Origin: a virus
Strand: one strand, 5' to 3'
DNA length: 22,675 nucleotides
Virus record (IMG/VR): IMGVR_UViG_3300034374_001491
Coordinates: 1-22,675 of that record
Below, piece by piece: positions 17,858 through 22,675 of this stretch. The position numbers were made by a program, and so were the translations under genes. Every line of letters begins with the position of its first letter. Positions within the stretch are counted from its first letter, which is position 1. The notes under the pieces were generated by a model. The model saw only the letters and a program-made list of their open reading frames with translations, was not told the origin of the DNA and ran no database searches.

Positions 17858-18007
17858 TTAATCTCCTATAAACCAAGCATATGCTTTTTGGTTTTCTTTA
17901 TTCTTTTCATTTATCAAAGTGTTAATTGCTTCTTCAATTTGTCTTTGAAAAAATTCTTGTGTTTCAAAACTATATCTAACATTATCTATATCAGTTTTGT
18001 CTGTCAT
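17858..18007 (-). CDS. Small acidic protein (49 aa) between nozzle and fibre genes
   Basis: From ATG 18007 the product is MTDKTDIDNVRYSFETQEFF, then a helix rich in E and N (EEAINTLINEKNKENQ) and AYAWFIGD. A longer frame reaching 18058 exists inside the nozzle gene, but ATG 18007 overlaps the nozzle stop as ATGA (18004-18007), the standard junction here, so 49 residues is the better call. It looks like a small soluble helical protein, with no known family. A fibre-attachment or assembly-helper role is suggested only by its place between nozzle and anchor fibre. Confidence 0.68.
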   Translation of the reverse strand: MTDKTDIDNVRYSFETQEFFQRQIEEAINTLINEKNKENQKAYAWFIGD

Positions 18008-19464
18008 CTTAATCCTGCTTTTGATGCAATAAGATCTATACCTTGTGCATGACTCCAAGGAGTTCCACTCGGAGTTTTAACATTAATTTTTACGTATCTA
18101 CCAGATTGTCTTACTGGATTAATACCTGTTCCATTCATAGAAACAGAAGAAGATTCATTTATATTATCAGTTAATCTATCTCTAGTTTTAATAGTAACTG
18201 TTGCTTCTGCATCTACTATAGGTCTAATACTTTGAACATTACTTCTTAAACCTGGAAATAATTCTACTTCAGATGTTTCTATTTCACCTTCATTATCTGT
18301 TCCAGAAAAAATAGCTGCTTTGTAACTACTATCAATTGCACCTAAATATCTTTGTCCACCATTCCAAAAGTCAGTATCTAATGCAATATTAATTTGATCT
18401 AAGTTTCCTGAAATAATATCCATTAATTCTACAGTATAAGCTCCTACAAATTGGCTAAAAATTGTACTTGCGTTAGCTTCTGCAAGAGACCATTTTTTTG
18501 TAGCATAATTATAGATTATAATTCTATCGCAAATTCCAGTTGTATTGGAAGTATTATTTACGCTAGGGTACAACCATAATGCTAGTTGATTAAATGGATC
18601 TACAGCTGCACAAATTCTATCTGTAAATGCTTTATTTAAATTTAAATCAAAAAATCTATTAACTTTTTCTGCACCAATAGATATTACATTGTCTCCATTA
18701 AGCTCAAAAAATCCATCATCTGCATAGAAAAATACACGTCTATTATCTTGAGCTACAGTTCTGCCATATACTGCACCTCTATTAGGTGAGATTACTGATA
18801 GTCGGAATACTGTAGCTCCTCCGACATAGTCCATACGAATTATCTGGTTTTGTCTAAAGACATATGAAATTTCTCCAGATGTTATATGGGTAATTTCTCC
18901 TCCTGATCCAGGAAGGTCTTGTAAGTCTGCTTGTTTACCTGACCAAGTAGTAATATCATTAATACCTGACCATTGTATTCTATTTTGATTTGAGCTTTGG
19001 TTACCTGTAACTAAAAAGTCTCGAATAACTCCTGATACTTTAAAGCTAGGTGTTGTTCCTGCAGTTTGTATTGCACTAAGATTTGCAAAGTTAGTTGAAG
19101 TACCCATTAGATAATACTGAGGAACATCAACTCCATTACTAGCAATAATATAATTTCCAAATTGTGTAAATGTCCAAAAATCTGTATTTCCACCTGTTAA
19201 AGATCCTTTTCTTGATGTAAATGTACCACCATCTAATTGATAAATATCTGTGTTAGTTGCAACAAAATTATATACATTACCTGCATTATCTCTAAAAGAT
19301 CCTGCACCTCTAGAATCTTTAGTAATATTATTAGAAGAATAATCTACCAAAGAAGGAAATCTCTTATAAGAATTAAGAGCATAATATACATTAGTTGCTA
19401 CGTTAGCTCCTGGATTCAAATGTTCAGGTTGATCAGGTAGCCATTCTCCAAAAGGTATCTGCAT
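18004..19464 (-). CDS. Tail nozzle / P22 gp10-like DNA-stabilising protein (486 aa)
   Basis: The 486-residue protein starts MQIPFGEWLPDQPEHLNPGA and continues with a typical order: NVYYALNSYKRFPSLVDYSS, repeated beta blades (NVYNFVATNTDIYQLDGGTF; FRQNQIIRMDYVGG), RGAVYGRTVAQDNRRVFFYA, and IIIYNYATKKWSLAEAN near two-thirds. These are hallmarks of the beta-propeller-like tail nozzle or hub (P22 gp10, SU10 nozzle). It closes the tail channel after packaging. It follows the adaptor gene in a TAATG overlap, as expected for sequential connector proteins. The C-terminal beta domain (AEATVTIKTRDRLTDNINES) is less conserved in appearance. Confidence 0.85.
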   Translation of the reverse strand: MQIPFGEWLPDQPEHLNPGANVATNVYYALNSYKRFPSLVDYSSNNITKDSRGAGSFRDNAGNVYNFVATNTDIYQLDGGTFTSRKGSLTGGNTDFWTFTQFGNYIIASNGVDVPQYYLMGTSTNFANLSAIQTAGTTPSFKVSGVIRDFLVTGNQSSNQNRIQWSGINDITTWSGKQADLQDLPGSGGEITHITSGEISYVFRQNQIIRMDYVGGATVFRLSVISPNRGAVYGRTVAQDNRRVFFYADDGFFELNGDNVISIGAEKVNRFFDLNLNKAFTDRICAAVDPFNQLALWLYPSVNNTSNTTGICDRIIIYNYATKKWSLAEANASTIFSQFVGAYTVELMDIISGNLDQINIALDTDFWNGGQRYLGAIDSSYKAAIFSGTDNEGEIETSEVELFPGLRSNVQSIRPIVDAEATVTIKTRDRLTDNINESSSVSMNGTGINPVRQSGRYVKINVKTPSGTPWSHAQGIDLIASKAGLR

Positions 19465-20126
19465 TATCTTTGCCTATAAAATGATAAGTCTGTTTGTACG
19501 TCTGTTCTTTGAACAACTGGTGCATTGCCATATGTATCTTGTTTGTCATTGTTCTCACATCTTTCAAGAGCTGACACATACATTGCTAACCATTGTTGTG
19601 CTTGATTTGGTTCTACACCACCAAGAAAATTAGCAGCATGATATAATGAACCATATAAATAAATAGCTGGATGTTTTGCTAAAATATAATTTGATGTATT
19701 AGTATCACTAAGCTCTGATATAGCTTTGTAATATGATAACTTGCCAGTATAAGAAACATCAGGGCTAGGAGCAAATCTAAATTTTTCAACTTCATTATCG
19801 CTTTCTATTGTGTAAGCTCTAGGTCTACCAGTTCTAGAACCACCTTTTATTTCAAACATATTAGCTGGTGTTATATATTCTAAAGGATATTTTACACCTG
19901 AATCTATATAAAATGATCTAACAGCTATAAATCCTGTAGGTACTGTTACTTGTTCAGCATCAATTGTAACATCATCTTGCTGTTCCATTTGTCTTATTCT
20001 AAGTTTAGCATTAAAGTCTGCTTCACATAGTTTTATAAAATCATCACTAATTTCTGAAGTTAAATCACTACGATTTAACCAGTTTGCAATAGATGTTTTA
20101 AGTTGTGCATATGTTGATATAGCCAT
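19464..20126 (-). CDS. Head-to-tail adaptor protein, P22 gp4/SU10-like (220 aa)
   Basis: The 220-residue protein starts MAISTYAQLKTSIANWLNRS and continues with a helical part carrying LCEADFNAKLRIRQMEQQ, a beta part (FIAVRSFYIDSGVKYPLEYI) and a C-terminal helix (LYGSLYHAANFLGGVEPNQA). This order (Tyr.LK..IA.WLNR, E..FN..LR.R.ME, P.F...R, LY.AL..AA.FL) is the classic adaptor of short-tailed phages that sits under the portal. It connects portal to nozzle. The ATG overlaps the preceding stop as TAATG and its stop overlaps the nozzle start as TAATG. Confidence 0.85.
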   Translation of the reverse strand: MAISTYAQLKTSIANWLNRSDLTSEISDDFIKLCEADFNAKLRIRQMEQQDDVTIDAEQVTVPTGFIAVRSFYIDSGVKYPLEYITPANMFEIKGGSRTGRPRAYTIESDNEVEKFRFAPSPDVSYTGKLSYYKAISELSDTNTSNYILAKHPAIYLYGSLYHAANFLGGVEPNQAQQWLAMYVSALERCENNDKQDTYGNAPVVQRTDVQTDLSFYRQR

Positions 20127-20467
20127 TATAAATTTCCTGACGCTGTTCTAAAATATCTAAACTCATTACTATTAAGCTTAGTTTTCATTATTTTTCTTTG
20201 TATGTCTTTTGGTAAAGCAAACCAATTGTTGCTTCCATTATATTCTTTAGCCCAGATCTGTAGAACAAGAGGTGGAACACTAGCTACTCGTTTCATTTCT
20301 TTTGCTTTAGAAACCCATCCTTGATCAGTATCATTATATAGCTTTTTATTTCTATCTAATAAACCATTAACATTTTGTTCATTATTAATAGTTAGTTTAC
20401 CATCTGATTCTTGGATATACTTAGTCTTTATTCCATTATCGTAGTCTACAGCTCTGACTTTTCCCAT
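20126..20467 (-). CDS. Small head-tail region protein (113 aa), function unknown
   Basis: The 113-residue protein has a charged N-terminal half and a C-terminal part with RVASVPPLVLQIWAKEYNGS, then ALPKDIQRKIMKTKLNSNEF and RYFRTASGNL. Small proteins with the VASVP..V...W.KE....W......RK....L....Y.YFRT..G pattern recur beside coat and adaptor genes in marine and enterobacterial podoviruses, where their role is not clear to me. It may be a head-completion or assembly factor. It couples to the adaptor through TAATG and starts one base after the preceding TAG. Confidence 0.68.
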   Translation of the reverse strand: MGKVRAVDYDNGIKTKYIQESDGKLTINNEQNVNGLLDRNKKLYNDTDQGWVSKAKEMKRVASVPPLVLQIWAKEYNGSNNWFALPKDIQRKIMKTKLNSNEFRYFRTASGNL

Positions 20468-20468
20468 A

Positions 20469-20744
20469 CTATTCTGATAGTTCTGTTACGTATAAATTTA
20501 CTGATCCTATTACAGCTACTTTTTCGCCAGGCGAAACTTTAAAACATTCAGAAGTTTTAGATTCTAAAAATATTTTAGATGTTGTTGCTGTTGGATTTAC
20601 TCCAAATTCTATATGACAATCAGCATCTGGTATAATTCTAATATATTCAATATTATCACTAAATGCAGAAGATTGTGCAGACGAACCAGAAGATGTAACT
20701 TTTTGTGTAGTTAGAGGTCTCATTGCGTAATTACTCCCGTACAT
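20469..20744 (-). CDS. Small beta-rich head-associated protein (91 aa)
   Basis: The 91-residue protein has a short N-terminal tail (GSNYAMRPLTTQKV), a Ser-rich turn, then strands IEYIRIIPDADCHIEFGVNP, TATTSKIFLESKT, and ECFKVSPGEKVAVIGSVNLY. This is a small beta-sandwich with a frequent marine-phage pattern (HIEFG.NPTA...I.L...E.FKVSPG.K.AVIG). Capsid decoration or head completion is inferred from its place after the coat region. An AAGGAG site eight bases before the ATG supports 20744 over Met8. Confidence 0.7.
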   Translation of the reverse strand: MYGSNYAMRPLTTQKVTSSGSSAQSSAFSDNIEYIRIIPDADCHIEFGVNPTATTSKIFLESKTSECFKVSPGEKVAVIGSVNLYVTELSE

Positions 20745-20763
20745 ATTTTGTTCTCCTTTTGTT

Positions 20764-20783
20764 TGGGGATGTTGCCACCCCCA
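20764..20783 (-). promoter_or_regulatory. G/C-rich hairpin with GCAA tetraloop after decoration-type gene
   Basis: In the transcribed strand the gap reads U-GGGGGUG, loop GCAA, CAUCCCC-A: eight pairs including one G-U wobble, closed by a GNRA-type tetraloop. It stands directly between the stop of the 115-residue gene and the AAGGAG site of the next. No U-run follows, so it is more likely an RNA-stability or processing element, or a weak terminator, than a classical intrinsic terminator. Confidence 0.6.
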
Positions 20784-20790
20784 GAATTAA

Positions 20791-21138
20791 TTATCTTCTA
20801 ATAACAAATGTTACTACTAATTTTTTAGCACCAGTAGATGCACCATCTGTAATCATTTCGATAGTTCCACCTTCTTCTACGTTATTAGCTGCTGTAGGTT
20901 CTGCTGTGTCTACATCACCTGCTGCTGAACCAGAGTGTGCAACAGTTATGCCACCACCAGTTACTGCAGTTCCACCAATTTCAAAAGATATTCCTGCATT
21001 TGCTCCAGAAATAGCTCCTTGTAAAGCTGTAAGAATTTTAATAATTTTTCCACCATCAGGTACTGCAACAAAAGTTGAAGATGCTGTGCTGATGTCTGCG
21101 ATAGTTGAAGTTATAAAATAGTCGTTTAATGTTCTCAT
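20791..21138 (-). CDS. Probable capsid decoration/head protein (115 aa)
   Basis: The 115-residue protein begins RTLNDYFITSTIADIS and is made of short strands and Gly/Ala loops (VPDGGKIIKILTALQGAISG, FEIGGTAVTGGGITVAHSGS, then EGGTIEMITDGASTGAKKLV and a basic VTFVIRR end). The size, composition and place straight after the coat gene match head-decoration or small virion proteins of marine podoviruses. It is flanked on both sides by noncoding gaps with G/C-rich hairpins, unlike other genes here, which suggests its expression is set separately. AAGGAAC precedes its ATG. Confidence 0.7.
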   Translation of the reverse strand: MRTLNDYFITSTIADISTASSTFVAVPDGGKIIKILTALQGAISGANAGISFEIGGTAVTGGGITVAHSGSAAGDVDTAEPTAANNVEEGGTIEMITDGASTGAKKLVVTFVIRR

Positions 21139-21244
21139 TGTGTTCCTTAATTGTTCCGATCCTAACCCTCTCTCAGATCTTCAATTGTTTAGAATCTGCT
21201 GGGGGAGCAGATTGAAAGGTTACTCCCCCAAACAGTTATAATTA
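21139..21244 (-). promoter_or_regulatory. Noncoding gap after capsid gene with hairpin/possible pseudoknot
   Basis: This 106-base gap is the longest noncoding stretch of the window. On the + strand an eight-base perfect inverted repeat AATCTGCT / AGCAGATT (21193-21213) encloses the loop GGGGG; on the transcribed strand the loop is CCCCC. Just 5' of it in the transcript lies UGGGGGAG (complement of 21223-21230), which can pair with the loop and its neighbours, giving either a pseudoknot or an alternative stem. No start codon or U-run is present. It may end, protect or process the capsid mRNA. Confidence 0.6.
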
Positions 21245-22186
21245 TTATGAAGTAGTTAAGTCTGCAACCATTCCAGATGCAGCTTCATTTCTTGACTCAA
21301 GAGTAGCTTCTACTAAAAGCTGTCTTTTCTCTGTGTCACCTGTTTTAGCAAGTTCATGCATAGAGAAATCTCTTAAGAATGCAATACCCCAGTAGTTCAT
21401 GTCTAGTACATAAGCGTCTCTATCTCTAGAGAATCTGTTAGGTACTACTTGTAACTGACCGAAGTCTGAAGCGTAAACGTCTACAGAAGTGTATAATGTA
21501 GCGTCTGCACCTGCATCAAATCTAGTAGAATTACCAGTAAAGCCTGATAATTTTTGTTTGTTGAATGGGCCCACCATAACCATTGAAGGGTCACCACCAG
21601 CATTCCATACTGATTTGATAACTGATTTTAATTGAGCTTCTGTGAAGGCTCTTTGAGTACCATCAGTTCTTGCTGTGTTACCAGCTCCACCTGATGAACC
21701 AGAAGCACCTAGATCATCATTTGATGCAACCCATGCACCAAGAGATCCAAATTTTCTAGCTGTTGTACTGTTACCAGCAACTTCTGCTTGGTTACCAGTC
21801 AAAGTAGCTTCCATGTCTCTTTTTAACTCTTTAGCTCTTTTAGCAATTTGATAAGCGATTTCAGATGCTCTACCTGCTTTATCTACTGCTTCTTGAGTAC
21901 CAGTAATTACCACAGTCTTGTCCATGATTTGGCAAGAGTTAGATAATCTGCTAGTTGCAGTTGATGCGTCTAGAGTTGCTTCATCACCTTCAATTACAGC
22001 ATTTGAAGTAGATGCTGCTGCTAGTGAGTCGGTTTGCCATTCGTGTAAAACTGCAGTAGCTTGAGTTTTTGCTGCTGAGCTTAAGAATGGCGTATCTGTA
22101 GGAGAGATGCTATAGATAACATCTGAAAGATCTTCTCTTTCCCCTACTGAATCGTACGTGTCAAACGTATTAGTTGGTTGTGCCAT
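21245..22186 (-). CDS. Major capsid protein, SU10-type (DUF5309 family; 313 aa)
   Basis: The 313-residue protein starts MAQPTNTFDTYDSVGEREDL, then SDVIYSISPTDTPFLSSAAK and TAVLHEWQTDSLAAAS. This opening, including the E.W..D.LA segment, is the hallmark of the SU10/DUF5309 major capsid family with HK97 fold. A long helix carries EIAYQIAKRAKELKRDMEAT, followed by the GSLGAWV segment and QLKSVIKSVWNAGGDPSMVM, and near the end VLDMNYWGIAFLRDFSMHEL. It forms the icosahedral shell. It follows the scaffold gene by three bases and is followed by the window's longest noncoding gap with hairpins, consistent with very high, separately tuned expression. Confidence 0.92.
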   Translation of the reverse strand: MAQPTNTFDTYDSVGEREDLSDVIYSISPTDTPFLSSAAKTQATAVLHEWQTDSLAAASTSNAVIEGDEATLDASTATSRLSNSCQIMDKTVVITGTQEAVDKAGRASEIAYQIAKRAKELKRDMEATLTGNQAEVAGNSTTARKFGSLGAWVASNDDLGASGSSGGAGNTARTDGTQRAFTEAQLKSVIKSVWNAGGDPSMVMVGPFNKQKLSGFTGNSTRFDAGADATLYTSVDVYASDFGQLQVVPNRFSRDRDAYVLDMNYWGIAFLRDFSMHELAKTGDTEKRQLLVEATLESRNEAASGMVADLTTS

Positions 22187-22189
22187 TGT

Positions 22190-22675
22190 TTATTTCCTTT
22201 GTTGAGATTTAAGATTAATAATGTCAAGAATCGCAGAAGAAGCATCATTAATGTTTCCTGTCTTACGAACCTTGCCAATTTTATTTCTTATTAACTCTCT
22301 ACCAGAACTTGTTGACGACTTAGCTGTACCTGCTTTTACTACTTTAGGTGCATTAGCTACTTTCTTTTGTATGATAGGTTTTCTATCTTTTAAAGATTGA
22401 TAGCTCATAGCATCTTTTGCAACCATTAAAAATCTATGATCTGCAAGTGTTCCAATTTCTTGATCATTAAAACCATAGTCTCGTAATGAATTACGTAGGT
22501 TAGTTTTAAATGAATCAGATTTTTTAGGATCTGCAAACTCAGGTATTTTTTGTGCTGCTAACTCTTTCTGTGTATCAAGGAACTCTTGGTATTGTTTTTG
22601 TTGAGCTTCTTTTGCTTTACTTTGTATTTCACTTAGCTGCTCTTGTTGTTGTCTTAACTGGTAGTCCAGTCGGGC
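22190..22675 (-). CDS. Capsid scaffolding protein (partial; N-terminus outside window)
   Basis: The - strand frame is open from the right edge to the TAA at 22190-22192, giving the last 161 residues. It does not begin at the internal Met at 22426. The visible part opens with a Gln/Glu/Lys-rich coiled coil (YQLRQQQEQLSEIQSKAKEA), then IPEFADPKKSDSFKTNLRN, then a characteristic DYGFNDQEIGTLADHRFLMV, and a basic tail with APKVVKAGTAKSSTSS and ILDIINLKSQQRK. Coiled coil followed by an YGF..QE...L.DHR.L..A.DA segment and a basic C-terminus, directly before the coat gene, is typical of podovirus scaffolds, whose C-terminus binds the coat protein. Confidence 0.85.
   Translation of the reverse strand, partial: ARLDYQLRQQQEQLSEIQSKAKEAQQKQYQEFLDTQKELAAQKIPEFADPKKSDSFKTNLRNSLRDYGFNDQEIGTLADHRFLMVAKDAMSYQSLKDRKPIIQKKVANAPKVVKAGTAKSSTSSGRELIRNKIGKVRKTGNINDASSAILDIINLKSQQRK

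Follow-up and report, generated by a model that had tools for sequence, protein, structure and literature searches.

Between the major capsid gene of this virus and the gene that follows it lies a gap of 106 nt, and the question it raises is whether the RNA transcribed from it folds into a structure that selection has kept and, if so, what that structure does for the messages on either side. Pelagiphages are among the most abundant ocean viruses, and how they balance their structural proteins with a host polymerase and short genomes is little understood. The window, by which we mean the whole stretch of DNA analyzed, is a 22,675-base virus record whose nearest annotated relative is Pelagibacter phage HTVC106P, a phage of Candidatus Pelagibacter sp. 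HTCC7211. Its structural genes are carried on the minus strand, which is also the sense strand for the gap (21139..21244, from the capsid stop to the start of the next gene). The gap had been described as the longest noncoding one in the window, but by the ORF table positions 1459-1569 form a longer one of 111 nt.

The two cistrons that border the gap are both likely to encode parts of the phage head. Upstream is a 313-aa SU10-type major capsid protein (21245..22186, minus strand), which matches Pfam family PF17236 (E = 1.3e-102) and the PHROG family phrog_1328, major head protein (E = 6e-109). The downstream cistron (20791..21138, minus strand) encodes a 115-aa protein with no match in Pfam or PHROG. 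Its AlphaFold2 model consists entirely of strands arranged as a beta-sandwich (pLDDT 92.8), the nearest viral fold match is an uncharacterized phage protein (TM 0.92 by query), and the PDB gave weak matches that include tail fibre, capsid, and protrusion proteins. Because of these weak fold matches and the place of the gene after that of the capsid, the model suggests a decoration or fibre-like head protein, and we refer to it as a probable head decoration protein. Its first eight residues, MRTLNDYF, are invariant among relatives down to about 53% overall identity, and the codons vary.

The original prediction for the gap was an 8-bp hairpin with a C5 loop that could pair with an upstream G5 run, as an H-type pseudoknot or as two exclusive folds, the two pairings overlapping at the loop edge only. 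Both pairings are present. Stem A is formed in the minus-strand RNA by AAUCUGCU-CCCCC-AGCAGAUU (21193..21213, minus strand; the plus strand at 21193-21213 reads aatctgctgggggagcagatt), and stem B is formed across the C5 loop by the G-rich strand UGGGGGAG (21230-21223), which is complementary to CUCCCCCA (21207-21200). However, the stems have 3 nt in common and B takes the entire C5 loop, so the overlap goes beyond the loop edge and A and B are mutually exclusive. In an H-type pseudoknot, the connectors flanking the loop would both have zero length, a sterically unreasonable arrangement, and the fold would rely on a stem A that is not conserved. In the window, the predicted energy of stem A is -8.6 kcal/mol versus -14.5 for the 8 bp of B and -20.4 for the full hairpin to which the G5/C5 pairing belongs (P1, described below); B is predicted to pair with a probability of 0.9999 and A with one of about 2e-5. 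The hairpin with a free C5 loop also does poorly as a working structure among 42 relatives, at least 7 of its 8 pairs being possible in only 19 and at most 4 in 16, and in the same alignment 74.1% of cells are paired for stem A versus 95% for P1. Relatives lacking either arm, or with non-compensated changes in the stems, had been named in advance as evidence against the proposal; stem A fails on this count, whereas stem B passes the covariation check strongly, with the G5 and C5 runs paired. B dominates, the pairing of G5 with C5 is the real stem, and A is a minor alternative.

The exclusivity of the two stems still allows a switch between them, in which the 3′ arm GCAG would pair either with CUGU in the lower part of P1 or with CUGC in the loop. 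The loop does repeat the 5′ arm of the lower stem (CUGU/CUGC), and stem A is possible in the closest relatives, those 19 of 42, but it fails in the 16 others just mentioned and lies about 12 kcal/mol above P1, and such excess pairing as it has is expected since A and P1 have strands in common. We therefore find no support for two states and consider a switch very unlikely. The G5 and C5 runs had also been taken as a sign of selection in their own right. They are few, three in the window and all of them in intergenic hairpins, but a first-order Markov model expects about 4.7, and there is no excess to explain.

What the gap contains instead is a pair of hairpins. P1 (21196..21235, minus strand) stands 9 nt past the capsid stop; its lower stem, CUGU/GCAG (21235-21232 with 21199-21196), is followed by a 1-nt bulge and then by the upper stem, UGGGGGAGU/GCUCCCCCA (21230-21222 with 21208-21200). 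The second hairpin, P2 (21149..21186, minus strand), had been missed. Its outer stem, AAUUG/CAAUU (21186-21182 with 21153-21149), and its inner stem, GAUC/GAUC (21179-21176 with 21161-21158), are separated by a conserved internal loop in which AA (21181-21180) stands opposite GGAA (21157-21154), in the context UG-AA-G / C-RGAA-CR (21154..21181, minus strand). Immediately 3′ of P2 is AAGGA (21144..21148, minus strand), a probable Shine–Dalgarno sequence, and in 64 class-I gaps the 3′ end of the P2 module lies 14-19 nt from the AUG. The minimum-free-energy fold of the window pairs this AAGGA with UUCU in the linker 5′ of P2. Relatives have a weak equivalent or none, and sequestration of the Shine–Dalgarno sequence by that UUCU looked inconsistent by reading and was set aside.

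Folded by itself, the gap is mildly unusual (z -1.69, with 10 of 200 shuffles equally stable), and the case therefore rests on comparison among relatives. A capsid search of IMG/VR provided 80 loci and searches with the 115-aa family about 160 more. A covariance model, R1, comprising P1 and P2, was built from 42 class-I copies including that of the window, which scores 107.5 bits, and a search of 69 class-I loci with it returned 69 copies (E <= 4e-12). Across 42 related gaps, the pairs of P1, P2, and the loop–loop contact described below form in 93.4% of cells, compared to 38-50% when the strands are slid. In the alignment of 69 copies, which was fitted to the structure and so favors it, 96.4% of cells are paired versus at most 45% in slid controls. 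Double-sided changes occur there in 17 of 22 pairs and amount to 259 doubly changed cells versus at most 31 slid, these being counts of cells rather than events, since relatives partly share their changes. For P1, 96.4% of cells are paired and 11 of 13 pairs have double-sided changes (68 distinct relatives); for P2, the corresponding figures are 93.8% in the outer stem, 99.6% in the inner stem, and 6 of 9 pairs. One alignment, A1, was made with MAFFT and is blind to structure. RNAalifold, given alignment A4, finds both hairpins without guidance, and double changes preserve 19 of 24 pairs. Because the inner stem was misaligned by MAFFT from one class to another, P2 was anchored across classes by regular expressions in place of a covariance model of its own. 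Taken as a whole, we have very little doubt that the structure is real and selected. To that extent the original prediction of a selected RNA structure between the capsid and the next gene stands, and the effect it proposed on the mRNA is plausible, but its folding was partly wrong.

The comparison also indicates which molecule is under selection. On the coding strand there are 121 G-U cells versus 11 A-C cells, and the selected molecule is therefore RNA, with the mRNA as the sense strand. P1 is an inverted repeat in DNA, as would be expected of a cruciform, of an inverted-repeat site for a DNA-binding protein, or of a packaging signal. However, an element acting at the DNA level is the least credible of the readings we weighed, because G-U is accepted in one strand only and because covariation between loops and an internal loop with exchanged strands, to both of which we now turn, make sense only for RNA.

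A tertiary pairing had been proposed for this gap and one does appear to exist, but it joins the loop of P1 to the loop of P2. The P1 loop strand UAACCUU (21216..21222, minus strand) is complementary to the P2 loop strand AGGGUUA (21163..21169, minus strand), and the two covary. Complementarity of 5-8 bp is found in all 44 distinct class-I loop pairs, and in divergent lineages both loops have changed together: UAAUCUAA x UUAGAUUA in L418, UACCCUA x UAGGGUA in L046, and UCUCC x GGAGA in L043. Loops paired with their own partners average -7.43 kcal/mol versus -6.27 when partners are permuted, with 0 of 5000 permutations as good; for 11 divergent representatives, the values are -7.73 and -5.38 (p ~1.5e-4). 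Individual sequences compared with shuffled loops are often not significant, and the strength of the result lies in the whole set. Judging from these sequence comparisons, the P1 and P2 loops appear to form a kissing interaction in the window's lineage, which would place the element among kissing-loop RNAs. Class III relatives, including the cultured HTVC106P, carry small loops on P1 and P2 and lack the kissing pairing, which is therefore dispensable or replaceable. Upstream of the 115-aa gene in class IV (L353-L398), the P2 apical loop GGUAUC is, in several copies, complementary to GAUACC just 5′ of P2; this match, which comes without covariation, is a suggestion of a possible pseudoknot in place of the kissing pairing.

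The most constant part of the element is the internal loop of P2. Its consensus, YG-AA-G / C-RGAA-CR, is near-invariant: among 62 distinct copies in the normal orientation, 58 have AA/GGAA and 4 have AA/AGAA, those letters being also the search pattern. Both closing G-C pairs are present in 121 of 121 cases. Of 235 starts of the 115-aa gene, 217 are preceded by the module, and 17 of the remaining 18 have a strand-swapped version in which CRGAACR comes first. To some extent the search pattern guarantees that the four- and six-base strands look invariant; it does not guarantee that the module turns up almost every time at exactly this place. Swapped modules were located at L402-L413, L477, L487, L489, and L490, and further swapped copies occur in metagenome-assembled genomes (MAGs) of Rhodobacterales and other alphaproteobacteria. 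One of them, L404, has GACG where the others have GAAG, and several may use their GAAGG strand as a Shine–Dalgarno sequence as well. At a single locus, L056, most of the element is missing, about 70 nt being absent between two GGA-containing stretches; this could be a real deletion or an artefact of amplification or assembly.

The module also keeps close company with one gene. It was not seen in more distant homologues that lack the MRTLNDYF protein start, and there are no other copies of the motif within the window or HTVC106P. When IMG/VR DNA was scanned with the pattern TGAAGTC...GACGGAAC, convincing intergenic outer stems were found only before the MRTLNDYF gene; the other matches fall in coding sequence and appear accidental. 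Scanning for the strand-swapped form recovered the known locus and, beyond it, almost nothing but chance matches in coding DNA. On the capsid tree, classes I and III are intermingled and take 7 changes each, 2 changes account for the swapped class, and class IV forms a single clade. The architecture has therefore been rearranged repeatedly, by mutation or recombination, with the P2 module retained throughout.

Is this RNA already known? At the gathering threshold, Rfam 15 had no matches in the whole window, and with E up to 5 the best match in the gap was blv_FSE (E = 0.7, 16 of 34 bits), which did not fall on the sense strand; whalefall-1 (E = 2.8, 10.8 of 37 bits) was treated as a chance match. 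A literature search, which was not exhaustive, found no description of it. This is therefore a genuine cis-acting RNA of SAR11 and related phages, apparently undescribed in Rfam 15 and the literature searched. Intercistronic cis-acting structured RNAs are a known kind; what is new here is that one of them has loops that kiss and an internal loop whose strands can be exchanged, and we know of no described example that has these. The Mu-gpT-DE motif (RF03012), whose name suggests a structured RNA located after the major head gene of a phage, would resemble our element in that position but does not match the gap at E up to 5. The manA, wcaG, and PhotoRC-II RNAs are likewise covarying phage RNAs, conserved in structure and found by covariation in marine metagenomes and phages, but they sit near metabolic and photosynthesis genes (PMC2864571). 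None of them matches the gap in Rfam.

A hairpin right after a capsid gene also recalls a transcription terminator. In phage T7, the terminator hairpin T-phi lies directly after capsid gene 10 in the late operon. The window P1, however, has no U-run, being followed by AUUCUAAAC or similar; HTVC106P, unlike T7 in this comparison, has no annotated RNA polymerase; and we know of no counterpart of P2 at T-phi. A transcription attenuator, in which P1 would be a partial terminator that lowers downstream transcription and P2 and the kissing helix would modulate read-through, would nevertheless suit the location after the capsid gene. In the strand-swapped relatives L063, L064, L066, and L403, a GC stem is followed by U-runs, and P1 there resembles an intrinsic terminator. 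We still think attenuation unlikely, given the missing U-run, a terminator scan of 18000-22675 that returned nothing, the rarity of UUUU after the stem (4 of 64 class-I gaps, alongside 2 of 50 in class III, 3 of 12 swapped, and 1 of 7 in class IV), and a conservation that peaks in P2, beyond any terminator.

The reading that we favor, with a probability of roughly 45%, is that the gap RNA partitions the late mRNA between the capsid and probable decoration cistrons through segmental control of stability and translation. It best accommodates the hairpin anatomy and the location between two shell-protein genes, and P2 lies directly against the downstream gene's ribosome-binding site. E. coli operons offer a precedent: a stable hairpin that follows a stop codon and lacks a U tract protects the upstream mRNA, and an RNase E cut just upstream of a hairpin protects the downstream mRNA, for example that of papA (PMC5927463). 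In the puf operon, segmental stability sets protein stoichiometry (PMC6238624). The anatomy of such operon-internal stability or processing elements, namely a hairpin after the stop without a U tract, an A/U-rich linker, and a structured downstream leader, is found in the window and its relatives, and the likeness would extend to protein ratios set from one mRNA. The hairpins of those operons are generic in sequence, whereas the element described here, which belongs to a phage head operon, combines a conserved loop–loop pairing with an internal loop that hardly varies. As we picture it, P1, a strong hairpin past the capsid stop, would cap and protect the 3′ end of the capsid message, and the A/U-rich single-stranded linker between P1 and P2 would be either cut or left intact. 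P2 would become, or stay, a structured leader at the 5′ end of the decoration message, whose stability and translation would be set by a factor reading the P2 internal loop. The kissing helix would brace the pair of hairpins and might also shield the linker between them. In this way, capsid and decoration protein levels would be set independently from one transcript. Against segmental control stand the class III relatives without the kissing pairing, L056 without most of the element, and the terminator-like P1 of some swapped relatives.

A purely stabilizing role is harder to reconcile with P2. Generic 5′ and 3′ stabilizers can do without invariant unpaired bases, which means that P2 must have a more specific task, and the constancy of its internal loop points to a bound factor. 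The main rival to segmental control starts from the same point: P2 would be a translational operator, where a phage structural protein, a host RNA-binding protein, or a ribosomal protein binds the internal loop beside the Shine–Dalgarno sequence to turn translation of the 115-aa gene down or up, with the stability of P2 adjusted by the kissing helix. Such putative binding would account for the near-invariant loop bases and closing pairs, for the fact that P2 always adjoins the ribosome-binding site, and for the exclusive link to MRTLNDYF genes; in the strand-swapped relatives, the YGAAGG strand could itself act as the Shine–Dalgarno sequence. However, the beta-sandwich model of the 115-aa protein is closer to capsid and fibre proteins than to an RNA-binding fold, which makes simple autoregulation less likely, and mimicry of rRNA was rejected since the 16S, 23S, and 5S rRNAs of E. 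coli contain no CRGAACR/YGAAG module. We regard the operator as possible but doubtful.

Returning to segmental control and the factor that it calls for, we would propose, with somewhat less than even confidence, that the P2 internal loop is a new three-dimensional RNA module read by a specific protein in either strand order. Together with P1 and the kissing helix, it would regulate capsid and decoration levels across SAR11 and related marine phages, and the loop contact would have been gained, lost, and rewritten repeatedly (kissing in the window's lineage, absent from class III, and perhaps replaced by a pseudoknot in class IV). A conserved RNA before a head-protein gene, together with a cultured pair (HTVC106P on Pelagibacter HTCC7211), makes it possible to test directly whether RNA controls capsid assembly. 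Work on RNA structure gains useful material too, in the form of two kissing loops that covary well and an internal-loop module for which nature provides versions with the strands exchanged.

The next gap of the window (20745-20790), which follows the stop of the 115-aa gene, also has a hairpin. It is G-rich, GGGGGUG-GCAA-CAUCCCC, with neither a U-run nor a P2. In relatives, this hairpin is replaced either by a palindromic AUGUUCCUGGAACGUUCUGGGAACAU or by GGGGGAUCUUACCUAGCGGUACUUCCCCC, which has an internal loop of its own.
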